DNA from: Polaribacter sp. HaHaR_3_91
GTDB lineage: Bacteria > Bacteroidota > Bacteroidia > Flavobacteriales > Flavobacteriaceae
NCBI RefSeq assembly: GCF_019278525.1
Contig: NZ_CP058986.1
Coordinates: 2,867,001-2,931,000, forward strand
Length of the DNA stretch: 64,000 bases
Reading direction: 5' to 3'
The notes under the pieces were generated by a model. That model was not told where the DNA came from. It saw nothing but the letters and a program-made list of their open reading frames with translations, and made no database searches. Below are positions 46,815 through 59,006 of this stretch, piece after piece; the stretch's first letter is position 1; each line of letters opens with the position of its first letter. Position numbers and translations under genes: made by a program.

Positions 46815-46869
46815 AAAAAAAAAAGCCAACTTTAAAAAACAGCATTTTCTGTTTTTTATATAAGTTGGC
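46815..46869 (-). terminator. Terminator of the 47-56 kb gene cluster
   Basis: Outer stem GCCAACTT (46825-46832) with AAGTTGGC (46862-46869), inner stem AAAAAACAG (46834-46842) with CTGTTTTTT (46849-46857). On the minus strand it ends in a run of about ten Ts, downstream of the last cluster gene and before the lplA promoter. Confidence 0.88.
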
Positions 46870-46965: not shown

Positions 46966-48705
46966 CTACTGATTCTCTTTAATAGAATCTATTTTTCTCT
47001 GAAGCTTTTCTATTTCTGTAAGTTTTTTATCTTGTGCAGAAAGTAGCTTAATAGAATCTAATATTTGCTGATTTTTATCTAGGTTAGAAATTAATTTTAT
47101 AGAATCTAAAACTTGTTTGTTCTGTTCTAAAATTGTTTTTTGCTTTTCGAAATACAAATTACTTCCTTCACTAGTTTTCCAAGCTTCATTTAATTGGTTG
47201 TAAACCTCCTCGTTCCAAGTACTTGGTTTTTTAGCATTTATCCAAACTACATCTCTATATTCACTATCTATTAAGGCTAAATCTGGCGTTGCAGAGCCAT
47301 CAAATTGTTCTGGATTATCTGAACTAATTGTAGAAACTGTTCCTAGAAAAAACATTCTTTTTCTACCTGCAATATTCTTAATATAAGGTCTAAATTCTAC
47401 GGGGGTATTTGAGTTCCAATCATACTCTTTTTTAGATTCTTTTACTTTTAAAGGCATCGCAGAAACTCCTGCATATCCTTGTTTTTTTGATGCATGATCG
47501 TAAAAATAAAACTTATCTGTACCGTCTGCTGGGATAAATACACTGTAACTTAAACTGGTTCTTTCATTACCTACTGGCTCTAAACCAAACCAATGATATA
47601 AGCCGCTAAAAGCATCTGTTTTACTGTCTGAAAAATCGAAATCGGTTACATAAGGTTGTGCATTTTGATCTTTTGGTACCGTAGGAATTTTTACTGCACT
47701 TTCCATGTTCCAAGGTAATGGATCTGAAAATCCTGCTAAAAACTTTAAACTTTCTGCTTGCAAACGAGATACGAGCTCTGATAATGTGTTCTGTTTGGTT
47801 AAATAAGCATGATTTTTCATTTCATCTGGAGCAATATAAGTTCCTTTACCAATGGTAATTCTTTCTAAATAATCTATAATATCATGTTCTCCGTTTTCAA
47901 TGACCATGACACCTCCAAAACTTGGATATGGAAAAAAGAAGCCTTTCCACTTTATTAAACTCACAACCTCTACCCAAGCTCCTTTATCATTTTTCATGTA
48001 ATACGTGTCGCTTGGTTCGTAATTAAAAAGCATCCAAGGATTTAAACGTTGTACTACCGCATTGTAGGTATTTCTACTAAATTTTAAAGATTCTCCAATA
48101 GAAAATGTCACCGAGATTCTATTTTCTGATGAAAAACGAGGAAAAGGAGTTGTACTTGACACAGAAAACACCTCTTCTGTATTGTCTTTTAATCCTTGCC
48201 AATAGTATTTTTCTGTAGGCTGGATTGCCATAGTCCATTGATTGTTTCCATCCACTCTTACCAAATGTGGCAACGAAACATCTTTGGTTTCTCCTACAGA
48301 TTCGTTTGCCATAGAAAAAATGTTTCTTAATGGCTGAATTCTTTCATTTTGAGTTAATGGCAACTCATGAATTTCTATCTTATTTAAATCGTTAAATACG
48401 TTATAGGTTTTCATATAATCGTAGAATTGTAAATTCCAACCTACATAATATAAGATTCCAAAAAATGCTGATAAGAAAAACAAAATTCCGATTCTTTTCC
48501 CAACACCTACCGCTTTTCTAAAACCTCGTAAACCTAGAAACAGCAGTGAAAAGCACAATAAAATTATGAAAATAAATTTTCTAAAAAATATTAATGCTGG
48601 CTGATAATCATCTCTAAAAAAGAATAATAATGCCAATAATATTATTAAAAATAGTATGACTCTTTTCTTTTGCTTTGCTCCTTTACTCCAATAATTCTTA
48701 ATCAT
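46966..48705 (-). CDS. Large membrane protein of the AAA+/coiled-coil cluster
   Basis: A 579-residue inner-membrane protein of no recognised family. Three hydrophobic helices at roughly 17-32, 36-58 and 70-90, then a ~400-residue extracytoplasmic region. The periplasmic part is rich in Trp, Tyr and Phe (YPSFGGVMVIENGEHDIIDYLERITIGKGTYIAPDE, FDFSDSKTDAFSGLYHWFGLEP). The last ~75 residues form a coiled coil with the repeat 'LEQNKQVLDSIKLISNLDKNQQILDSIKLLSAQD'. It is the last gene of a seven-gene minus-strand run and could be the membrane-side target or anchor of that system. Confidence 0.7.
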   Translation of the reverse strand: MIKNYWSKGAKQKKRVILFLIILLALLFFFRDDYQPALIFFRKFIFIILLCFSLLFLGLRGFRKAVGVGKRIGILFFLSAFFGILYYVGWNLQFYDYMKTYNVFNDLNKIEIHELPLTQNERIQPLRNIFSMANESVGETKDVSLPHLVRVDGNNQWTMAIQPTEKYYWQGLKDNTEEVFSVSSTTPFPRFSSENRISVTFSIGESLKFSRNTYNAVVQRLNPWMLFNYEPSDTYYMKNDKGAWVEVVSLIKWKGFFFPYPSFGGVMVIENGEHDIIDYLERITIGKGTYIAPDEMKNHAYLTKQNTLSELVSRLQAESLKFLAGFSDPLPWNMESAVKIPTVPKDQNAQPYVTDFDFSDSKTDAFSGLYHWFGLEPVGNERTSLSYSVFIPADGTDKFYFYDHASKKQGYAGVSAMPLKVKESKKEYDWNSNTPVEFRPYIKNIAGRKRMFFLGTVSTISSDNPEQFDGSATPDLALIDSEYRDVVWINAKKPSTWNEEVYNQLNEAWKTSEGSNLYFEKQKTILEQNKQVLDSIKLISNLDKNQQILDSIKLLSAQDKKLTEIEKLQRKIDSIKENQ

Positions 48706-48710
48706 AACTA

Positions 48711-48745
48711 CAAGTTTGAAGTATGAAGTTTGAAACTAGAAGTTT
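48711..48745. repeat. Degenerate 7-bp array AAGTTTG x5
   Basis: Five consecutive heptamers: AAGTTTG, AAGTATG, AAGTTTG, AAACTAG, AAGTTTC. It begins six bases from the start codon of the 46966-48705 gene, directly upstream of it on the minus strand. Confidence 0.7.
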
Positions 48746-48813
48746 CTTACCCATACTTACTATTTTATTCTAATTAATTTTATACTATTTTTTTGATTAG
48801 TGCCACCAAATAC

Positions 48814-49326
48814 TTATAAAAGTCCTTTATCTTTTAATCGTTCTCTTGCACTTTTGTCTGCTACTTTAGGTACTTCTTTTGTTACGTCAACTTCCTTATT
48901 ATCTTTTTCTTTAAAATCTTCTACAAAATCTTTTCCTTTTTCTATAATTTCTTCTAATTTATCCTCGAAAGCCTCAGTCTGTTCTTCAATAATTTCTGAA
49001 GATTTAAAAATAGCTCCTGCAATATAAGTCCCAATCAAAGTTCCGAAAATCATGGATGCAAACAATGAAATTGTTGCATAATTTATGGGAATTAAAAATT
49101 GCACAATTAAAATTCCGATTAGAAATACAACAGCGATATAGACAAACCTTAAAACAAAATTCTGCTGAAACACAAAACCTTTTGTATCGGTATCTTTCAT
49201 CTGTAATTCTTCTGAATTCATTACTTTATTGAAGAATAGATACATTTTATTACCTCTTGATTCTCTCCAATAAATAACAATTCCGAATAAAATTGCTGCG
49301 ATAAATATGATGATTTCTATGGTCAT
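48814..49326 (-). CDS. Small membrane protein of the AAA+/coiled-coil cluster
   Basis: A 170-residue protein with an N-terminal helix (4-20), a second and third helix (about 58-80 and 86-110), and a charged C-terminal tail of ~55 residues rich in Glu, Lys and Asp, predicted to be an extended coil (IEEQTEAFEDKLEEIIEKGKDFVEDFKEKDNKEVD). It ends in RERLKDKGLL. Family unknown. It lies 45 bp from the next upstream gene and 108 bp from the downstream one, within the same minus-strand run. Confidence 0.7.
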   Translation of the reverse strand: MTIEIIIFIAAILFGIVIYWRESRGNKMYLFFNKVMNSEELQMKDTDTKGFVFQQNFVLRFVYIAVVFLIGILIVQFLIPINYATISLFASMIFGTLIGTYIAGAIFKSSEIIEEQTEAFEDKLEEIIEKGKDFVEDFKEKDNKEVDVTKEVPKVADKSARERLKDKGLL

Positions 49327-49371
49327 GGTTATAAAAAGATTGAAGTTATATATAAAATTAGTCTATTTTTT

Positions 49372-50607
49372 CTAAAAATTGTTACAAATTGTTTCTATTA
49401 CCCAATCTTGTGTTGAATCTTCTAAAGTTTTAAAAACTTCGTAAAATTGTTCTTTGTCATACCAATACAAAAATAACACATCTTTTGGTGCAATGTTTAC
49501 TAATAAACTCCAAATTAAATCTTGATGATTTGGTAATAATGAAGAGTGTGGTTTGTGCAGAGCCACATACATTTCTTCATCAATAAAATCTTTCGGATTT
49601 ATGTTTTTAGAAATTTGCTGTTTTTCTAAAAACAACTCTAAACCCATTATTTTTTTTCTTGATGAAATATCTATTTTGTTTAAATAACTCTTAAATAAAA
49701 TCCCCTCTTCTAAAATATCTTTAACAGAGTGTGTCGATTTTTTTAAATACGATGAAAACATATATTTCTGAATTCTCTTGTATCTTTTTTTAGTAGTTTC
49801 TTCTTCTAAATCTAACTCTAGAACATTATAACTGATTAATTTCTCAATCATTTCTTTATGTGAAATATGATACATTAAAACATCATACGTTGTATCTTGT
49901 ATTGCCTCTTTGTAGGTTGCTTCATTTTGAAAAACAAGAACTGGTACTACTAAATCTCTTAATAAGAAAACACCACCAAAAGCCTTTGTATAAAAAGAAT
50001 CTGTTGTAAAAATAATTTCTTCTATACTTAAATTTCTCTCTCTTAAATCTCCATATTTCTTTGCAGATGTTATCAATTTATTGTGAATCTCTTCGTTTAT
50101 AAAATTGTTATCAGCATTAAATAATTCAATTAATTGTAATTGCTCTTCTTTGGCTTTGTGTAATTTATCAATTAAATGAAACTTAATCGTAATGTCTTTG
50201 TACCTTAAAATATCTAAAGGTTCATAAAAAACATCTATTTTTTGATCAAACTCAATGCAAACAGCAGAATCTCTTGTAATATCGTTAATCGTTTTTTCAT
50301 GTTTTTTAAACACCATTTTCATCAACTCTCTATCAAAAGAATTAAACGGATTGTATACAGGTAATCCTTTTTGTCTTGGAGTAATAATTATAGCGTAGGT
50401 ATTTGCTTCACCATTATTTAAATAAAAGGGTTCCCCTTTTTCTTCTGCTATTTCCGGACTCCAACCTACTCCGTCTATTGAAAATGACGTCAATTTGGTT
50501 TTTGTAAACCCGAGTTTTACAAGACATTTATTATAACGTTCTACCAATTTTCCACTAACGTTAATGGACTCGCTTCTGTATAAATTGGCTTTTATTAGTT
50601 TTTGCAT
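49372..50607 (-). CDS. 411-residue unknown protein of the AAA+/coiled-coil cluster
   Basis: A soluble, mixed alpha/beta protein with no signal peptide or membrane segment. Early region: SFSIDGVGWSPEIAEEKGEPFYLNNGEANTYAIIITPRQKGLPVYNPFNSFDRELMKMVFKKHEKTINDITRDSAVCIEFDQKID. It also has a long helical middle and a C-terminal acidic part. I do not recognise a family with confidence; from memory, proteins of this kind in Flavobacteriaceae carry the label DUF6638, which I could not check. Positioned between the NudK-like gene and a small membrane protein. Confidence 0.7.
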   Translation of the reverse strand: MQKLIKANLYRSESINVSGKLVERYNKCLVKLGFTKTKLTSFSIDGVGWSPEIAEEKGEPFYLNNGEANTYAIIITPRQKGLPVYNPFNSFDRELMKMVFKKHEKTINDITRDSAVCIEFDQKIDVFYEPLDILRYKDITIKFHLIDKLHKAKEEQLQLIELFNADNNFINEEIHNKLITSAKKYGDLRERNLSIEEIIFTTDSFYTKAFGGVFLLRDLVVPVLVFQNEATYKEAIQDTTYDVLMYHISHKEMIEKLISYNVLELDLEEETTKKRYKRIQKYMFSSYLKKSTHSVKDILEEGILFKSYLNKIDISSRKKIMGLELFLEKQQISKNINPKDFIDEEMYVALHKPHSSLLPNHQDLIWSLLVNIAPKDVLFLYWYDKEQFYEVFKTLEDSTQDWVIETICNNF

Positions 50608-50625
50608 TTTTTAATTGTTACACAG

Positions 50626-50657
50626 AGTTTCACTGAAATAATACAGAGAAACACGGA
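50626..50657. repeat. Degenerate 7-bp tract (ACAGAG type)
   Basis: ACAGAGT, TTCACTG, AAATAAT, ACAGAGA, AACACGG, AGTATTT: ACAGAG recurs 21 bases apart. It lies just upstream of the 49372-50607 start codon and resembles the tract at 17222-17266. Confidence 0.45.
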
Positions 50658-50689
50658 GTATTTTTTTTTACTCTTAATATTACTTTTTA

Positions 50690-51274
50690 TTACTCTAATA
50701 ATTTATGAATGATAGCATATTGCAAAAGTACAATAGTTCTTGTATCTACAATTTCTCCTTCATTTAACATTCTTACAGCTTCTGTAAACGGAATTTCTAA
50801 AACTTCTATATCTTCTGTTTCACTTTCTAAACCTCCACCTTCACTCACTTTCATATCGTCTGTATATTCACCCACAAAAAAGTGCATTTTCTCTGTTAAA
50901 ACTCCGGGTGATGAATAACCTTCATATACTTTTTTAACAGACTTTAAACGAATCCCTACTTCTTCTTCGGTTTCTCTAATGATACATTGTTCTGGATTGT
51001 CTAAATCCAATAATCCGGCAGGAATTTCAATTAAAAATCCGTCTTTGTTATCATGTAAAAAAGTAGGTAATCTAAATTGTTTGATTAAAACCACTGTTTT
51101 TTTGGTGGTATTGTACAACAAAATCCCAGCTCCATGACCACGTTCATAGACTTCTCTCATTTGTTGTACCCAACTTCCGTCGGACATTTGATAATCGAAA
51201 TTGAATTTATTTAACGTGTAATAATTATCTGATAATAATGTCTTTTTACTATTTTTTATTCTGATGTTACTCAT
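50690..51274 (-). CDS. NudK-like NUDIX hydrolase
   Basis: A 194-residue NUDIX protein (start 51274, overlapping the AAA+ gene's stop by 8 nt; an ATG at 51304 lies inside that gene). The Nudix box is at residues 87-108, with AGLLD, REtEEEVG; GGGLESETEDIEVLEIPFTEA and SSPGVLTEKMHFFVGEY later match the GDP-mannose pyrophosphatase NudK/YffH. The catalytic REx2EE core is intact, but one Glu upstream is an Asn. It may hydrolyse a sugar nucleotide; in this operon a different nucleotide is possible. Confidence 0.85.
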   Translation of the reverse strand: MSNIRIKNSKKTLLSDNYYTLNKFNFDYQMSDGSWVQQMREVYERGHGAGILLYNTTKKTVVLIKQFRLPTFLHDNKDGFLIEIPAGLLDLDNPEQCIIRETEEEVGIRLKSVKKVYEGYSSPGVLTEKMHFFVGEYTDDMKVSEGGGLESETEDIEVLEIPFTEAVRMLNEGEIVDTRTIVLLQYAIIHKLLE

Positions 51275-53225
51275 TCTCAAAAGTTTTTCTTGCTTGTAAA
51301 TCAATATTCATTTGGTTGACTCTCGCGTCTACTTTTCTCTTAAAATCTGTATCTGCAATCGTGGCAACATTATCTAAATAACGTACCACTTCTTGTCTTC
51401 TAATTTCAGAAAAATTAAGTCCTTTCATATTGCTTTTCATTAACTCTTGCAACATGTTAAATTTGGTTTCATATTTCTGTTTGAAATAAATTTCAGGATT
51501 TTCAAACCAATCTTGTTCTAAATCGAAATCTGTTAATCGCAATGAAATTGCAGACTGAATATTACGCACATCTCTCGATGAAAAGAATGGAAATATTTTC
51601 TGAATTTCTTTGTATAAAATGGCAAAGAACAAATGCTCATTTGATCTATGGTTTTTCTCTGCTCTGTCATACGCTTCTAAAACTCTTTGTTCGGATGGTT
51701 TTTCTACAGAGCCCAAAATTTCTCCCATACTTTTTGTCAATCCTTGATCTTTTAAAAACTGATAATTAGACGGATTTTGCATGTTTACAAAATCGGGCAT
51801 TGTTTTTTCAAACTTTTTCCACCAAATATAATCCTGATCTAAAAAATCGTGTTCTGTTCTTGCTCCATCAATTTTAAATCTACCTTGTACACGAGAAATT
51901 ACCGCTTTATCTAACATTTCTGGCAAATTGGTAAATAATCCGATAGAAGAATTTCCATAATTAACCGCATAAGCGCCTTCTGTATATCGTAAGAAAACTC
52001 CAATAACTTCTTTTACACCCGCCGAAACGCCTTGTGTAGTTCTTTCTTGTAAATTGTTTTCTGCATCATCAATAGGCGCAAAAATTAATTTTGTTGGGTC
52101 TTGCATGGGCTTCATCCATTCTACCATTTTTTCTGCAGATCCTCCTTGAAAAGTAGAGATTAACGTGTCTGGCATTGGATGAAATAAAAACGGAATCTCT
52201 AAATTGTCTGAATATTCTTTTAGTCGTGTTGCAATGGCTGCAATTAACATCGATTTTCCTGTTCCCGGAATTCCATATCCCATAAAAACAGGCATAAAAC
52301 CACCCAATTCTTGAAACGGATTCTTCTTTGCATCAAAATCGTAACTCAGCATTCTTTCTGTTAATCTACGTGCAAAATGTTTAGCATCTTTATTCCCTAC
52401 AATTTGCTCGAACTGAATTTTATTAAATTCGATACTTTTTGCGGTTCCAGAAAAAACATTGTCCCAACCAGAAATAGCAAAATCAGAATTTTCTAATTTA
52501 TAGGTCCTATCAACTATGGTTTCGGTGTATTCTAAACTGCTTTTACGCAATTGAATTTCATCAATTAGAGCTTCAAAATACACCACTGTAAAATCAATGA
52601 CATCTTTGTCTGACTTTACAATATCTGGATGTCCTAAATATTTATCAAAATAAAATAAAGAACACGCAATTCCTTTTAAAGGTGATAAAAGCGAAACTTC
52701 TGGAATACCAGCAAACTTTTGCTTCATCACCGATAAATCATCTGAAGCATGTGGTTTTAAATCGTGTAAAATTTTATAAGAAGTCGCAAATAATTGAAAA
52801 GCTGTTGCTGTTTGCATCTTACTTTCAAATTCTCTTTTTCCTTGAGAATCTAAAGCCGATTTTCGTTCGTGCAAACTTGATAAACCAGATGAATCATAAT
52901 AATTATCTTTAATCCAAATACCTAAAGTGAGTCCTTCTTGCACTGCATACAACGTCTGATTCAAATACACAGGTATTGCTATAGAATCTGGCAATAATCT
53001 CTTTTTTAAAGCTAAAATAGTTTTAGAAATTGATGTAACTTCTACATTGCTTCCTGAATTAGCTCTTGACAAATACAGCAAAATCGATTCGTCTTTTGCG
53101 TCTTTTTCTTTATTCTTTGCTCTATTACTTTGCTCCCACTGAATACTTTTTAAATAACCAGAAGCTTCATCGCGAAGCATGTTTAATTCATTTTGTTTGA
53201 TGGGAAAAGTAGAATTATGATTCAT
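51267..53225 (-). CDS. AAA+ ATPase of the coiled-coil/membrane cluster
   Basis: A 652-residue protein with a ~300-residue unique N-terminal region and one AAA+ domain: Walker A GIPGTGKS (318-325), Walker B region LIFAPIDDAE (380-389; Asp-Asp instead of the usual Asp-Glu), a putative sensor or arginine finger in NLPEMLDKAVISRVQGRF (433-450), and a C-terminal helical extension. The N-terminal part has no recognised family. Only one AAA+ domain and no protease or helicase domain, so a remodelling or motor role is likely. Overlaps the NudK-like gene. Confidence 0.85.
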   Translation of the reverse strand: MNHNSTFPIKQNELNMLRDEASGYLKSIQWEQSNRAKNKEKDAKDESILLYLSRANSGSNVEVTSISKTILALKKRLLPDSIAIPVYLNQTLYAVQEGLTLGIWIKDNYYDSSGLSSLHERKSALDSQGKREFESKMQTATAFQLFATSYKILHDLKPHASDDLSVMKQKFAGIPEVSLLSPLKGIACSLFYFDKYLGHPDIVKSDKDVIDFTVVYFEALIDEIQLRKSSLEYTETIVDRTYKLENSDFAISGWDNVFSGTAKSIEFNKIQFEQIVGNKDAKHFARRLTERMLSYDFDAKKNPFQELGGFMPVFMGYGIPGTGKSMLIAAIATRLKEYSDNLEIPFLFHPMPDTLISTFQGGSAEKMVEWMKPMQDPTKLIFAPIDDAENNLQERTTQGVSAGVKEVIGVFLRYTEGAYAVNYGNSSIGLFTNLPEMLDKAVISRVQGRFKIDGARTEHDFLDQDYIWWKKFEKTMPDFVNMQNPSNYQFLKDQGLTKSMGEILGSVEKPSEQRVLEAYDRAEKNHRSNEHLFFAILYKEIQKIFPFFSSRDVRNIQSAISLRLTDFDLEQDWFENPEIYFKQKYETKFNMLQELMKSNMKGLNFSEIRRQEVVRYLDNVATIADTDFKRKVDARVNQMNIDLQARKTFENE

Positions 53226-53229
53226 AGTT

Positions 53230-53266
53230 TTTCAGTATGCAGTTGGCAGTAGTAGTTGGCAATTTT
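53230..53266. repeat. Degenerate 7-bp tract (CAGTNNN)
   Basis: CAGTATG, CAGTTGG, CAGTAGT, AGTTGGC, AATTTTA. It begins within ten bases of the AAA+ start codon at 53225, again just upstream on the minus strand. Confidence 0.55.
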
Positions 53267-53321
53267 ACACTGCTTTTCTTATACCTGGTTATTTTTTATA
53301 TTTTTAATTTTCATTCTTCAA

Positions 53322-53350
53322 ACCTCACAAGTTTTAAAAACCTTTGAGGT
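53322..53350 (-). terminator. Weak hairpin between the 53371 gene and the AAA+ gene
   Basis: CCTCACAAGTTTT (53323-53335) pairs imperfectly with AAAACCTTTGAGG. Only a modest T-rich tail on either strand, so at most a weak terminator or pausing site, possibly allowing read-through to the AAA+ gene. Confidence 0.35.
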
Positions 53351-53370
53351 CTTGTCTTTATTCTCAAACT

Positions 53371-54411
53371 CTATTTCACATCAATTTTTAAACTCGCCAA
53401 TTCAATCGGCGGTTTTGCCAATTTATCTAAAGTTCTTGGTGTTTGGTTATATAATAATTGAATTATCCTGTGAGGCGCTAAAACATATTTTTGTTGAATA
53501 ACTTCACTCCATTTTTGCATGGTTTGTTTAGAGAAAAAACTTCCTTCTGTAAATGTATCACCAGAAAAAACCTCATCTATTTTTAATGACAAAGCATAAG
53601 ACTCTAAAGGAATTTCTTTTTTAGCAATTCCACCTAAAATAGTATGTGTTATTTCATTTTCGTCTTTTGCGAAGACATTATGAAAAGGTCCTAAATCTAT
53701 TCTTTTCAGATGTTTTGGCCTGATATCTGGTAATTTTCGATCAATATTATACGCCATTGTATCTAAAGACATTTCTCTATCTGCTGTTTCTTTTAAGACT
53801 TCATAAATTTTTTCTTTGTCTATTTTTCCGTCATAATTAAAATACATATAACAAATAAAAGGTCGGTTATGACTTACGTCATAGAAACTCCAACTTGTCA
53901 TATATTGATAATTCTGACCTTCCTTAGCGGTTAATATTTTACCTTGTACAAATCTGTTAAAAATGTATTTTTTTTCTACAGAAGTATAATAAATAAAAGA
54001 AGAAGCTTTAAATAAATCTAACCTTTTAATAGGTTGTTTTTTAACTAAAAGTGTGTTTAAAAATTCTGCTTTTAGAATTTCTACATCTTTTAATTTATCT
54101 AAATGCTGATTTCTTAACTCTAAATCGTTGTACAAAAATCGAAACTCTAAATAATTAGGAAACCCAGAGTCTGTTAAATCGACTTTCATGTTATCTTCTT
54201 CGTCATACATATATTTAATACGCATGGCTTCTATAGAATATAAAAGTAAATCTGAATATTGCTTAAAAAGTAACAATTCTTGATGTGTGCATAATTTTTC
54301 TTGTTGCACACTTACAATGAGTTCTTTTAATACAAAATCTACCATTTTATGATAAAAAACATATTGTTCTTTTGAATCTAAAAGTGCAGAATCTAAAGGT
54401 GTTGTAATCAT
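53371..54411 (-). CDS. 346-residue unknown protein of the AAA+/coiled-coil cluster
   Basis: A soluble protein of mostly helical character, without signal or membrane helix. Early part: FYHKMVDFVLKELIVSVQQEKLCTHQELLLFKQYSDLLLYSIEAMRIKYMY. Later PNYLEFRFLYNDLELRNQHLDKL and SFYDVSHNRPFICYMYFNYDGKIDKEKIYEVLKETADRE. The C-terminus contains ALSLKIDEVFSGDTFTEGSFFSKQTMQKWSEVI. No known family is recognised. Located between the coiled-coil gene and the AAA+ gene. Confidence 0.7.
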   Translation of the reverse strand: MITTPLDSALLDSKEQYVFYHKMVDFVLKELIVSVQQEKLCTHQELLLFKQYSDLLLYSIEAMRIKYMYDEEDNMKVDLTDSGFPNYLEFRFLYNDLELRNQHLDKLKDVEILKAEFLNTLLVKKQPIKRLDLFKASSFIYYTSVEKKYIFNRFVQGKILTAKEGQNYQYMTSWSFYDVSHNRPFICYMYFNYDGKIDKEKIYEVLKETADREMSLDTMAYNIDRKLPDIRPKHLKRIDLGPFHNVFAKDENEITHTILGGIAKKEIPLESYALSLKIDEVFSGDTFTEGSFFSKQTMQKWSEVIQQKYVLAPHRIIQLLYNQTPRTLDKLAKPPIELASLKIDVK

Positions 54412-54458
54412 TTTTTAGTTGATAATCTTTTACAATGAATTTATTTAGCAAGTATGCC

Positions 54459-54566
54459 AGCTGCGTTAAGGATTGAAATGGCATCCTTTTTTGAGGCACG
54501 AAAAAAAGATATAAAGAAAAGCCTGACCTTCTTTTTGATTTTCAAAAAAGAAGGTAACGCCCAAAA
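54459..54566 (+). ncRNA. Structured intergenic element, copy 2 (Flavo-1-like)
   Basis: Same landmarks as the copy at 29416: GCGTTA (5') can pair with TAACGC (3'), hairpin GGAT-TGAAATGGC-ATCC, T-run, AAAAAAAGATATAA, AAAGCCTG. The variable part is here a tight hairpin, GACCTTCTTTTTG with CAAAAAAGAAGGT. It lies in the 222-bp gap between two minus-strand cluster genes, in plus orientation. Short conserved segments with variable hairpins indicate selection on structure. Confidence 0.5.
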
Positions 54567-54596
54567 TATTTTTCTTAACAACAATTTTCAGGCACA

Positions 54597-54633
54597 AGCT
54601 AACTGCTAACTACAACTGAAAACTGAATACTTT
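54597..54633. repeat. Degenerate 7-bp tract (ACTGNNN)
   Basis: ACTG/ACTA words recur every 6-7 bases: ACTGCTA, ACTACA, ACTGAAA, ACTGAAT, AC. Located just past the stop codon of the coiled-coil gene. Confidence 0.5.
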
Positions 54634-55974
54634 TTACCCTAACAAATCGTCGTTAGAAGTATCTGTTTTTGGTTTTGCTGCAGGAGCATCCGTTCCTTTT
54701 GGAGCAGTTGCATCTGCTTTGTAATAGTCTTCAAAAATCTCTTTCATGTCTATTCCGTAACGGTCTGCAAAGTTCTTTTGAATGTCGATATCTTTCTCTC
54801 TAATTTCATGTAAAGCCTCTGCGTAAGAGCTATAAACACCGGTCATCACTTTTTCGTGAAGCGGAATATTATCCATCATTTCTTGACGTGCTCTAGCACT
54901 TGCAGAATGCATAGACGCTAAAGTTTCTCCGATATGCTCATCTGTTTTTACACCTAAATGCTCTAAAATTGCCGCAAATTCTTGGTCTGTTCTTGCTTTT
55001 AATGCAACCACATAACCATCATAATACTTTAACCTTTCTTCAGTATCCGACTTTAATTTTGCTCTATGTGTTTGTAAATTAGAACGCAAAGAAGTTAATA
55101 CTTTAATGGTTAAATTGTGTTTGTGCACAAAACTATCTTTACTGGCAGCCAAGGTTGTGTAAGCATTTTTAAGACCTTCTAACTCTTCTACTTTTTGCTC
55201 AATAGCAGTCATTTTACCAATCGCTTCTGAATAGGCAGTAGATTGTTTGTCTACAATTTCTTCTAATTCTTGTCGAGATTGTTTTAATAAAGCATACTGC
55301 TCTTCTAATTGCTCTTCTACTTCTTTCTTTTTAGCTAACGCTTTTGTATGATTTTTAGAAGCCTCTACAATAGCATCTTTTAACTTTTCTTCTACTTCTT
55401 TTATTTCTACTTCTCTATTTTTTAAACGCGTAACTGCTGCTTGAGATTTGTAAGAAAGCTCACTTAATAGCGTTTGAATATCGGCACTTTCTATACGTTG
55501 CTGAAATAATGCTTTTGCTTTATTATCTGCACCTGCACGTAGTTTTTCTGCTGCTGCAAATTCTATTTCTTCTTTTTTAATCTTCGATTTTCTACCCCAT
55601 AAATTGTTCCACCAAGTATCTGCTTTGTTTTGTGCATCTTCTAACTCTATTCTTGCTCGTTCTAATCCTTTTTGAGCATCGTCTATTACTTTTTGTTCTG
55701 ATGGGTTTAAGGCTGAAAATTTCTCGAACATAATACCAACTTCATCTTGGTAATCTGTTAAGTCTTTTATAGCATCTAAAAGCGTACTTCTGTCTTTTTC
55801 TGCCATGTGCACAACATCATCTAAGGTTGCGTTTAGAATTTTTTGGCGAGACTCTGGATCATCTTCTTGTGCCAATTTAGATTTCATGGTGTCAATCGCT
55901 TTCCCCCAATTTACATCTACTTTTTCAGTTTTTTTGTTTGCACTAGTTTCTAGTAAATCAAAATCATCAGACAT
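54634..55974 (-). CDS. Coiled-coil protein, first gene of the AAA+/membrane cluster
   Basis: A 446-residue, highly charged, largely alpha-helical protein. It opens with MSDDFDLLETSANKKTEKVDVNWGKAID. Long heptad-rich segments lie at roughly 100-160 and 185-320 (LEEQYALLKQSRQELEEIVDKQSTAYSEAIGKMTAIEQKVEELEGLK). The C-terminal tail is Ala/Pro/Lys-rich and ends in a conserved-looking NDDLLG. In flavobacterial genomes proteins of this kind are labelled 'microtubule-binding' and the layout recalls TelA (toxic anion resistance) helical proteins; neither function is shown. It leads the seven-gene run. Confidence 0.72.
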   Translation of the reverse strand: MSDDFDLLETSANKKTEKVDVNWGKAIDTMKSKLAQEDDPESRQKILNATLDDVVHMAEKDRSTLLDAIKDLTDYQDEVGIMFEKFSALNPSEQKVIDDAQKGLERARIELEDAQNKADTWWNNLWGRKSKIKKEEIEFAAAEKLRAGADNKAKALFQQRIESADIQTLLSELSYKSQAAVTRLKNREVEIKEVEEKLKDAIVEASKNHTKALAKKKEVEEQLEEQYALLKQSRQELEEIVDKQSTAYSEAIGKMTAIEQKVEELEGLKNAYTTLAASKDSFVHKHNLTIKVLTSLRSNLQTHRAKLKSDTEERLKYYDGYVVALKARTDQEFAAILEHLGVKTDEHIGETLASMHSASARARQEMMDNIPLHEKVMTGVYSSYAEALHEIREKDIDIQKNFADRYGIDMKEIFEDYYKADATAPKGTDAPAAKPKTDTSNDDLLG

Positions 55975-56273: not shown

Positions 56274-59006
56274 TTGAAAATAAAACTACTTTTATTACTT
56301 ATTCTTATTAGTATCAATACTTTCTCGCAAAGAGAAACAGATCATTGGTATTTTGGAGATAAAGCAGGCATTCATTTTAATAAAGAAAATGTAGATGTTT
56401 TAGAAGACAGCCAAATGACAGTTCTTAAAGGCTCTTCAAGTATTTCGGATAACCAAGGAAACTTATTATTTTATACAGACGGACAAACCATCTGGAATAA
56501 AAATAATGAGATAATGATAAATGGTGAGGGCTTAAATGGCGAGTTAAACAACACGCAATCTTCGATAATTATACCTAAGCCAAATAGTGATTCTACTTTT
56601 TATGTTTTTACAACTAGAAAAACAGAATTAAGTTCTCCCTTAGTTTATCCTATGATTTATCATTCAGAAATAGAATTTTCAACTTCAAGACCTTTAGGCT
56701 GGGTTAAATACAAGAACATGCCACTTATACATTCCACAGCAAATAAAATTACCGCTGTACACCATAAAAACGGTAAAGATGTTTGGGTTATAACTTACGG
56801 AAGTAATGCATATGAAGCTGAAAATGATATTTTTTACGCTATTAAAGTTACAGAAGATGGTGTAGAAAGACCATTTACAACAACACAACTTGAGTATGTA
56901 AAATATGAAAATAGTTATGATGGAGAAATGACAATTTCTCCTGATGGAAGTACCATCGCTTTATATAATGATGGTCTTATCAGGTTTTTTAATTTTGATA
57001 GCAATACCGGTATTTTATCAAAATTAAAATATGTAACCATAGCAGAATTTGGTGGAGCTGGTTATGCCGCTTATGGACTTACTTTTTCTCCTGATTCTAA
57101 ATTTTTATATTATTCTGCAAGTTATAGTGGTCAAACCTATAACATAATGCAATTAGAAGTAGCCAATACAAATGAAAGTTATAGAGGAACCCCCGTATAC
57201 TCTGGTCCACTAGACATACTGCAATCTTCTATAAGCCTAGGTACAGACGGAAAAATATATATTGCACAATCAACCTATGAAAATCTATATGATATAAATG
57301 GTTATAAAATTGGTTATAACCTATTTCCTGTCCAAACTCTTAGTATTGTACATGAGCCTAATAAAATAGGTGCTTTGGCAAACTACGAACATGAAGCTCT
57401 AAATTTAAAAAGTGGTGCTTCTTATAGAGGCTTGCCTAATTTTATTCAATCTTATTTTAGAAATAGAATTGTTACTAAAAATGAATGTATTACAGATACT
57501 TTTAACTTTAGTCTAGACTCTTATAATACAATATCTAATGCCGAATGGGATTTTGGCGATGGAAATTCTGCTTCAGGTTTATCTTCAGATCATCAATACG
57601 CATCCGAAGGTAATTACCTAGTAACCTGCACCGTAACAATTAACGGAACCGATATTCCTTTTTATAAAGAAGTAACAGTTTATCCATTACCTGTTTTAAC
57701 TCCAGACCAAAAATTAATACAATGTGATGTTGATAATAATGGAATCGATTTTTTTGATTTAACTGATATTGGAGATAAAATAGTTAAAGATGCCTTTAAT
57801 AAAGCGTATCTTTTCTACAAAAACAGCATAGATGCAGAAAATGATGAAAACCGCATACCAAATCCAAAAAACTTCGAAAATGAAAGCAATCCTCAAGAAC
57901 TTTTTGTAAAAGTTATTTCGGAAAAAGGCTGTGGAAACATTACTAACTTTTTTATTGAATCTAAGTTTGTTTCTCTTGGTACCATTGACACGTATTATAC
58001 CTGTGATAGCTCAGACAATTTAAATGGAGACAGTATTGGATATTTCGATTTAAAAACAAAAAGCACTGAAATTTTAGACCAATTTAGTTTAGATTCTAAA
58101 AATACAATTCGTTTTTACCCAACATTATTAGACGCACAAACCACAGAAAATCAACTTCCTTATAAACTTAATACGCCATCTACAACTATTTATGTTCGAG
58201 TAGATAATGAGTTAGGTTGTGGCGGAATGGAGCCTATAAATTTAGTAGTAAATCCTACTCCCAAAATAGAGCTACAAGACAGTTACACTATTTGTTTTAA
58301 TCCAAATGTAAACCCAATTACCCTAACAGCAGATGCTAGCAATGATTTATATGAATGGAGAGATAGTTCAGACAATATTATAAGCACAAACAAAGACTTT
58401 AAATTAAATGCTATCGGAGATTTTTCTTTAACGGTTTACAAAACCGAAAACGGAATAACCTGTACTAGTTTTAAAGAATTCACAGTAAATAATCCGCCAG
58501 CGGCAACGATTTACTACATCAATGTAAACACAGAAGACGAAGCCAATAATATTGTTGATATTAGTCTTGATGGTAACAGTACCTATGAATTCTCATTAGA
58601 TAATAACACCTTTTTTGGTAATGGAACTTCACATACTTTTACGCATGTCACTCCAGGATCAAGAACTATTTATATAAGAGATCTTAATAATTGTGAACCT
58701 CCAGTGCAAACCGATGTTTCAGTAATTGGGTATAGAAAGTTTTTTACACCAAACAATGATAATAAAAACGACTATTGGAATGTAAAAGGAATAAACAGCA
58801 CTTTCTTTAAATCTGTTAAAATATTTATCTTTGATAGATACGGTAAAGCAGTCTACCAAATTACAGATTTCAATAATCTAGGTTGGGACGGAACCTATAA
58901 TGGTAAACCGCTGCCTTCTAACGATTATTGGTTTCAATCTGAAATTATTGACAACAACGACCAATTAATTAAAGCTTCTGGAAATTTTAGTTTAATAAGA
59001 AAGTAA
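56274..59006 (+). CDS. T9SS type-B sorted surface protein (PKD, gliding-associated C-terminal domain)
   Basis: A 910-residue exported protein. It starts at a TTG (56274), as no ATG precedes the signal peptide (KIKLLLLLILISINTFSQ). The N-terminal ~380 residues contain WD/propeller-like beta repeats (FSPDSKFLYYSASYSG, SISLGTDGKIYIAQS); a PKD domain (EWDFGDGNSASGLSSDHQYASEGNYLVTCTVTING) is at about 415-470. The C-terminal ~92 residues (from GYRKFFTPNNDNKNDYW) are the gliding-motility-associated type-B domain (TIGR04131-like), the sorting signal for the type IX secretion system. Its role is unknown; surface display or secretion is expected. Confidence 0.9.
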   Translation: MKIKLLLLLILISINTFSQRETDHWYFGDKAGIHFNKENVDVLEDSQMTVLKGSSSISDNQGNLLFYTDGQTIWNKNNEIMINGEGLNGELNNTQSSIIIPKPNSDSTFYVFTTRKTELSSPLVYPMIYHSEIEFSTSRPLGWVKYKNMPLIHSTANKITAVHHKNGKDVWVITYGSNAYEAENDIFYAIKVTEDGVERPFTTTQLEYVKYENSYDGEMTISPDGSTIALYNDGLIRFFNFDSNTGILSKLKYVTIAEFGGAGYAAYGLTFSPDSKFLYYSASYSGQTYNIMQLEVANTNESYRGTPVYSGPLDILQSSISLGTDGKIYIAQSTYENLYDINGYKIGYNLFPVQTLSIVHEPNKIGALANYEHEALNLKSGASYRGLPNFIQSYFRNRIVTKNECITDTFNFSLDSYNTISNAEWDFGDGNSASGLSSDHQYASEGNYLVTCTVTINGTDIPFYKEVTVYPLPVLTPDQKLIQCDVDNNGIDFFDLTDIGDKIVKDAFNKAYLFYKNSIDAENDENRIPNPKNFENESNPQELFVKVISEKGCGNITNFFIESKFVSLGTIDTYYTCDSSDNLNGDSIGYFDLKTKSTEILDQFSLDSKNTIRFYPTLLDAQTTENQLPYKLNTPSTTIYVRVDNELGCGGMEPINLVVNPTPKIELQDSYTICFNPNVNPITLTADASNDLYEWRDSSDNIISTNKDFKLNAIGDFSLTVYKTENGITCTSFKEFTVNNPPAATIYYINVNTEDEANNIVDISLDGNSTYEFSLDNNTFFGNGTSHTFTHVTPGSRTIYIRDLNNCEPPVQTDVSVIGYRKFFTPNNDNKNDYWNVKGINSTFFKSVKIFIFDRYGKAVYQITDFNNLGWDGTYNGKPLPSNDYWFQSEIIDNNDQLIKASGNFSLIRK

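Follow-up and report, generated by a model that had tools for sequence, protein, structure and literature searches.

A four-gene core around an AAA ATPase common to Bacteroidota and Pseudomonadota, found within a seven-gene cluster of Polaribacter sp. HaHaR_3_91

Introduction

The closest described counterparts of the gene cluster considered here are Vps4 with ESCRT-III and the archaeal CdvB/CdvC pair. The cluster lies on the minus strand at positions 46966-55974 of a stretch of 64,000 nucleotides (the window; contig NZ_CP058986.1, positions 2,867,001 to 2,931,000) of the genome of Polaribacter sp. HaHaR_3_91, which is a single contig of 4.21 Mb. It resembles both systems in that the gene of a classical AAA ATPase stands beside that of a helical partner, that this partner has a conserved C-terminal tail and that a link to the membrane is plausible. 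It differs from them in that the partner, a coiled-coil protein, is not detectably of the ESCRT-III or PspA type by sequence, and in that the ATPase is nearest to VCP-like and Cdc48 proteins and carries an Asp in its Walker B motif. To our knowledge, the two further partners, a protein of 346 amino acids (aa) and a DUF6638 protein, have no counterpart in Vps4/ESCRT-III or CdvB/CdvC.

Bacterial PspA genes together with AAA genes, and Vps4-like AAA proteins together with TPR and 6TM proteins, have been reported, and none of the sets in the available part of that paper equals the present one (PMC11237479). The PspA-AAA and PSP-like neighbourhoods described in the same part (PMC11237479) are alike in having an AAA gene beside those of coiled-coil and membrane proteins, with a proposed role in the envelope; they differ in composition, and PspA has no match in the Polaribacter genome. 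The TelA/tellurite-resistance genes also code for a soluble coiled-coil protein, of a family that the present one does not match. IetA of the ietAS pair (PADLOC) is alike in its AAA core (E 3e-6), but the match is confined to residues 317-484, and the ATPase of the window is about twice as long as the profile and has other partners. The open-licence literature, covered partly by listings and the beginnings of abstracts, gave no AAA system of matching composition, and no mention of 'DUF6638' was found in it. The original prediction, made from the sequence alone, that no system of this composition had been described is supported within that literature; the system may nevertheless have been described in a closed journal or by another name.

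The comparison reported here showed that four of the genes, coding for the coiled-coil protein, the 346-aa protein, the AAA ATPase and the DUF6638 protein, form a core common to Bacteroidota and Pseudomonadota. We consider it very probable that this core is a real functional unit.

Gene composition of the cluster

The cluster was found to comprise the seven consecutive minus-strand genes that had been predicted, with open frames of 446, 346, 652, 204, 411, 170 and 579 aa:

54634..55974, minus strand: gene 1, coiled-coil protein, with homologues in Vibrio and Rhizobiaceae
53371..54411, minus strand: gene 2, 346-aa protein (u346) without family, with homologues in Pseudomonadota
51267..53225, minus strand: gene 3, classical AAA ATPase of 652 aa, PF00004 at residues 317-452
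50690..51274, minus strand: gene 4, NudK-like Nudix hydrolase, optional, PF00293; counted from ATG (the frame as listed, 204 aa, starts with TTG at 51304)
49372..50607, minus strand: gene 5, DUF6638 protein of 411 aa, PF20343 with 124.8 bits against a cut-off of 27
48814..49326, minus strand: gene 6, 170-aa membrane protein, from its Kyte-Doolittle segments
46966..48705, minus strand: gene 7, 579-aa membrane protein with a hydrophobic N terminus and a large remainder, no family over cut-off
46815..46869, minus strand: intrinsic terminator after gene 7

The matches to PF00004 and PF00293 agree with the identities first given to the AAA and Nudix proteins, and the claimed overlap of 8 nt between their genes was recovered, the AAA gene ending at 51267 and the Nudix gene being counted from the in-frame ATG at 51274. 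In Pfam and a second family library no family passes its cut-off for the coiled-coil protein, the 346-aa protein or either membrane protein. Of the four proteins first said to belong to no recognisable family, one, the 411-aa protein, is a member of DUF6638. By the Kyte-Doolittle scale, hydrophobic segments are present at about residues 1-23 and 51-107 of the 170-aa protein and 11-92 of the 579-aa protein; the other five proteins have none, save one marginal segment in the 411-aa protein (208-227). Behind gene 7, direct reading of the sequence gave a stem, GCCAACTT...AAGTTGGC, with a T run behind it (about 46815-46869), and in folding the intergenic stretch surpasses most of its shuffled versions (z -2.5; 3 of 200 shuffles as good). 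The predicted terminator is therefore regarded as correct; a pattern scan with loops of up to 8 bases gave none at this place.

A core of four genes in two phyla

Outside Bacteroidota the sampling was made via a plasmid collection of 72,556 records. When these were searched by tblastn, the AAA protein matched 10 records at 26-29% identity, nine of the matches covering at least 80%, and the records proved to be chromosome-sized replicons of Vibrio and megaplasmids of Rhizobiaceae. The DUF6638 protein and the Sinorhizobium meliloti homologue of the 346-aa protein, used as queries, recovered the same 10 records, and the S. meliloti coiled-coil protein the same 10 plus one. The order coiled coil, 346-aa-like protein, AAA ATPase, DUF6638 was present in Vibrio vulnificus (L112) and V. 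parahaemolyticus (L125), as well as in S. meliloti pSymB (L113), Shinella (L114) and Rhizobium leguminosarum TP16 (L115); on pSymB an endonuclease gene and an insertion sequence (IS) element sit before the DUF6638 gene. Between Flavobacteriaceae and these two classes of the other phylum the core proteins have 20-28% identity.

Comparison by hhalign of the flavobacterial profiles with the proteobacterial proteins gave 85.5% and 93.4% for the coiled coil and 97.9% and 97.3% for the 346-aa protein, while the 346-aa profile against the DUF6638 protein of S. meliloti, used as a control, gave 0.08%. The DUF6638 proteins of V. vulnificus and S. meliloti scored 199 and 256 bits against PF20343; the coiled coils and the 346-aa-like proteins of the same two loci match no family over the cut-off.

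Within the named genomes, a scan with the AAA profile gave 348 relatives, of which the best 80 were used, so that the synteny counts apply to the nearest relatives. These came from Polaribacter, Tenacibaculum, Winogradskyella, Lacinutrix, Algibacter, Hyunsoonleella, Lutibacter, Bizionia and other genera, those nearest by AAA identity among the best 80 being Polaribacter (89-93%). Together with the window and three further genomes, and less one duplicate (L010, which repeats L047), 83 loci were obtained, their genes being called by script as longest frames; 11 were set aside as too short and 72 reached far enough on both sides. The genes of the coiled coil, the 346-aa protein, the AAA ATPase, DUF6638 and the 170-aa and 579-aa membrane proteins were present in 70 of the 72, in one order and on one strand in all 70. 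In the two exceptions (L035, L047) only the first three genes are found, and DUF6638 is matched about 9 kb beyond them. The flanking genes vary between loci, which indicates that the cluster itself is held together, and the expectation that the same genes would keep together across genera was borne out for these six.

The distribution is patchy. In an even sample of Flavobacteriaceae the AAA protein occurs in 72 of 236 genera and in 87 of 299 genomes, in one of them as a match to residues 1-323 only. In samples of Bacteroidota as a whole, DUF6638 was found in 5 of 395 genomes and the 346-aa profile in 5 of 390, the same five genomes of Flavobacteriaceae in both cases; with a cross-phylum profile, full-length AAA matches were found in those same five among 246 genomes of the order.

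Synteny inside one family could be inherited, and the cluster might be a loose neighbourhood of unrelated genes that are syntenic there by chance. That the four genes recur with unchanged order in two classes of a different phylum, at such low identity and with all 10 AAA-matched records shared, refutes this explanation for the core; as a reading of the whole cluster it is highly improbable, though it still applies to the Nudix gene.

The Nudix protein meets TIGR00052, the YffH/AdpP subfamily (158.9 bits against a cut-off of 79.55), and falls below the cut-off of the NudK equivalog NF011585 (209.2 bits against 234). Of the 70 complete loci, 57 have its gene, invariably placed between those of AAA and DUF6638, and 13 lack it. 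When loci are compared, the closer the AAA protein is to that of the window, the closer are the five other proteins too (Spearman coefficients of identity 0.42 to 0.70), whereas the Nudix protein tends slightly the other way (-0.32); among 14 Nudix-bearing loci whose AAA proteins are at least 89% identical, values for the Nudix protein run from 38% to 91%. Of 67 copies, 64 keep the RExxEExG part of the Nudix box. In none of the five proteobacterial neighbourhoods (L112-L115, L125) is a Nudix gene found between those of AAA and DUF6638. It seems that the slot is refilled by different NudK-like enzymes while the neighbours stay, and the gene is therefore treated as an optional passenger. As a core member it was rejected on account of its absence from 13 loci and of a divergence that does not track AAA, and the idea of a nucleotide-hydrolysing enzyme as an integral part of the system had to be abandoned. 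Of the single unit originally proposed, the six genes kept together and the core of four stand; the Nudix gene is not integral, and the sharing with Pseudomonadota had been missed.

Turnover at the Nudix slot, the patchy presence in the family and the insertion of toxin-antitoxin-like and other small genes in the cluster could also speak for an anti-phage or conflict system, in which the ATPase and its partners would sense infection, the membrane proteins would disrupt the membrane, and the Nudix slot and the toxin-like inserts would supply variable effectors. Besides the AAA core with IetA, weak PADLOC matches link the Nudix protein with PDC-S07 (E 0.002) and a 48-residue stretch of the DUF6638 protein with DrmC (E 0.002), but for none of the proteins does a match to a defence family extend over the length of the protein. 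Moreover, the coiled-coil protein (80-93% identity to the window's copy across 80 other loci) and the AAA protein (73-93% among flavobacterial loci) are highly conserved, the AAA protein has no match in 50,697 phage records, and a neighbour of housekeeping type, which we take to be an ABC-F-like gene, recurs upstream in 28 loci. An anti-phage role is accordingly judged unlikely.

Properties of the core proteins

The AAA protein retains most of the classical sequence elements, of which the following were located:

52251..52280, minus strand: Walker A GYGIPGTGKS, AAA residues 316-325, with G318 and P320-S325 identical in 84/84 flavobacterial sequences
52143..52151, minus strand: putative pore loop 1, F359-Q-G (Y-Q-G in Pseudomonadota), from its position
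52065..52070, minus strand: Walker B D386-D387, Asp where classical AAA proteins have Glu, in the register of an HMMER alignment to a VCP-like ATPase

The Walker A pattern GxxxxGK[ST], the sensor Asn and the arginine fingers of classical AAA proteins are all present, whereas the Walker B pattern hhhhDE with its catalytic Glu is not. Asp-Asp was found in 11 of 11 proteins aligned across the phyla and in 84 of 84 in Flavobacteriaceae. All residues checked are identical in the 84, and in the 11 cross-phylum sequences except for Ser or Thr at 325; roles were assigned by position to the sensor N433 and to R445 and R449, and we presume the same for F359-Q-G as pore loop 1. Profile matches in the Protein Data Bank (PDB) included VCP-like proteins, Cdc48, Rpt, Vps4, SKD1 and CdvC, with VCP-like and Cdc48 as the best. 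Pfam gave neither an MIT nor a protease domain in the protein.

The coiled-coil character of gene 1 was deduced from weak matches to coiled-coil families rather than from a dedicated predictor. Both ends of the protein carry a conserved motif; as in the AAA counts, the duplicate locus L010 is still included in the numbers:

55945..55968, minus strand: N-terminal motif DDFDLLET, coiled-coil residues 3-10, with FDLLET in the first 70 residues of 81/81 flavobacterial members
54637..54654, minus strand: C-terminal tail NDDLLG behind a variable linker, with DD[LM]Lx at the C terminus of 81/81 flavobacterial members

The protein had been said to recall TelA (PF05816). This likeness was not upheld, there being no Pfam match at E 1, no match of a TelA profile in its own genome, and an hhalign probability of 0.1 and 0.04 to one TelA protein.

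Vps4, SKD1 and CdvC among the PDB neighbours of the ATPase, and membrane proteins encoded alongside, would suit a strict bacterial Vps4/ESCRT-III machine, in which the coiled coil would be a remote ESCRT-III/PspA fold polymerising on membranes and the ATPase a Vps4-like disassembler reading C-terminal tails. The tails of the present proteins are placed like those that Vps4 reads. The coiled coil has no Pfam match to PspA (PF04012) or Snf7 at E 1, however, and hhalign to one PspA protein gave 0.15 and 0.30; the best AAA matches are not to Vps4, and Pfam gave no match to an MIT domain. This reading is decidedly unlikely. On the same Pfam and hhalign results, and with no match of a PspA profile in its own genome, membership of the coiled coil in PspA/Snf7 and identity of the cluster with a PSP system were rejected.

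Structure models of the 346-aa and DUF6638 proteins reached pLDDT values of 86.8 and 89.7, respectively, and residues 163-333 of the former were compared with the T-fold (urate oxidase, GTP cyclohydrolase).

Membrane partners

In Flavobacteriaceae the core is followed by the genes of the two membrane proteins, the smaller of which ends in a nearly invariant tail:

48817..48855, minus strand: C-terminal tail KSARERLKDKGLL of the 170-aa protein, with SAR[EDQ]RLKDKG in 74/75 members and SARERLKEKG in the remaining one

The invariant tails of both the coiled coil and the 170-aa protein sit behind less conserved linkers and look like docking peptides, as far as can be judged from sequence.

A protein of the DUF2333 family (PF10095) with N-terminal hydrophobic segments comes after DUF6638 in S. 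meliloti and Shinella, where it occupies the slot of the membrane partner beside the same core, although its sequence is unrelated to the 579-aa protein. The possibility that the latter is itself a DUF2333 protein was rejected (hhalign 0.2 and 0.4; DUF2333 absent from the families listed, 25 of 39, for 54 members), and a short look-alike stretch spotted by eye, GEHDIIDYLERIT against GRSDNLIEFLDRIT, is treated as chance. In the one study of the open-licence literature that was found to mention DUF2333, an hcp locus (type VI secretion) of Pseudomonas fluorescens has the gene next to those of an amidase and a Nudix protein (PMC5256989).

On plasmid pSK03 of R. leguminosarum (L141) a coiled-coil gene adjoins that of DUF2333, with PAS, regulator, hypothetical and TIGR00645 genes coming after the pair. 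The stretch has the same outer genes as the core neighbourhood, thymidine kinase and formate-tetrahydrofolate ligase, and none of the 346-aa, AAA and DUF6638 genes is present in it or matched in that record. The coiled coil is therefore tied to a membrane protein. Three further DUF2333 genes (L142, L143, L144) lie near genes of sigma-70-type and anti-sigma factors, which fits an envelope-stress setting and is no proof of it.

Inserted and neighbouring genes

Small proteins resembling four-helix bundles are encoded in gaps of the cluster, with 31 copies in 26 loci when the whole fetched stretches are counted, and in five loci a two-gene pair resembling an antitoxin and a MazF-type toxin lies between the coiled-coil and 346-aa genes; these names were assigned by likeness in sequence. 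Loci with inserted genes are L016, L019, L022, L023 and L025, and L009, L029, L061 and others.

Upstream of the cluster the window holds a divergent frame of 910 aa (56274-59006), which we take to resemble large secreted surface proteins linked to gliding motility; matches of 26-34% to it were found upstream of the cluster in nine loci, mostly of Polaribacter, and downstream in one.

The TIGR00645-family gene of L141 (12828-13358) is close to the coiled coil-DUF2333 pair, and in Skermanella a YqhA-family gene comes directly after DUF2333. We presume that TIGR00645 and YqhA are names of one family, which would connect the pSK03 gene with those of Skermanella.

Proposed function

The reading that we favour, to which we give an even chance on sequence evidence, is that of a membrane-tethered AAA machine which remodels the coiled-coil protein near the membrane with the help of two co-factors. 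The ATPase would form a hexamer and act as an ATP-driven remodeller of assemblies into which the coiled-coil protein may polymerise, with the 346-aa and DUF6638 proteins serving it as dedicated adaptors or co-factors. The 170-aa and 579-aa proteins would anchor the machine of Flavobacteriaceae to the inner membrane, with the SARERLKDKG tail of the former and the DDLL tail of the coiled coil as putative docking peptides, and the large domain of the 579-aa protein may sense or touch the envelope. In some Rhizobiaceae the unrelated DUF2333 membrane protein would take the place of these two. The likely purpose would be the upkeep of the envelope or a response to stress. Of the AAA-driven, membrane-linked remodelling system with a nucleotide-hydrolysing enzyme that was first suggested, the remodelling may still be proposed and gains from the docking-like tails and from the coiled coil being paired, in rhizobia, with a membrane protein; the Nudix hydrolase is no longer part of it.

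Several observations weigh against this proposal. With Asp instead of Glu in Walker B, the ATPase could hydrolyse ATP weakly, to judge from the motif. A tail of the DD[LM]Lx type was not found in four aligned proteobacterial coiled coils, and the models of the 346-aa and DUF6638 proteins gave no convincing match in the PDB. In the plasmid records most of the DUF6638 matches cover a part of the protein, one of the 10 reaching 80% and two reaching 15%. Comparison of profiles showed no relation between the 579-aa protein and DUF2333, as stated above. The coiled coil of pSK03 scores 0.2 against the flavobacterial profile and is linked to it only via the S. meliloti protein (32%), and a different replicon of the strain could carry the core genes missing there. 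Neither of the two small genes upstream of the core in V. vulnificus has a hydrophobic segment, and mfd lies downstream; the nine records with DUF2333 do not include R. leguminosarum TP16, where the other neighbours were not checked for membrane segments. As no membrane gene was thus recognised beside the core in Vibrio, and no DUF2333 gene in TP16, the tethering to the membrane may be confined to certain lineages.

The same two cases would suit a cytosolic chaperone for protein quality control or assembly, consisting of an AAA unfoldase with adaptors, for which the membrane proteins of Flavobacteriaceae would be accessory clients. A classical AAA protein with a pore loop and, by Pfam, without a protease domain is also in keeping with remodellers of the Cdc48 and TRIP13 type. 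On pSK03, however, the coiled coil sits with DUF2333 without the AAA, 346-aa and DUF6638 genes, and is therefore not just an adaptor of the ATPase; we regard the cytosolic reading as fairly unlikely.

A more far-reaching form of the membrane-tethered machine is put forward tentatively, as possible but short of probable. The core would then represent a new class of bacterial remodelling machine common to both phyla, in which a classical AAA protein with an Asp-Asp Walker B motif and two dedicated co-factors without a recognised fold would, driven by ATP, build and dismantle a coiled-coil scaffold, outside ESCRT-III, PspA and TelA, on the inner face of the membrane, with tethers specific to each lineage.

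Conclusions

If the membrane-tethered remodelling machine is real, an apparently undescribed ATP-driven machine would be present in much of one family, with 87 of the 299 genomes sampled and 348 loci from a single scan, and in some vibrios and rhizobia. DUF6638 and, in rhizobia, DUF2333 would gain a context and a clear set of partners. The machine would be a bacterial counterpart to the pairs of AAA protein and polymer that remodel membranes in archaea and eukaryotes.

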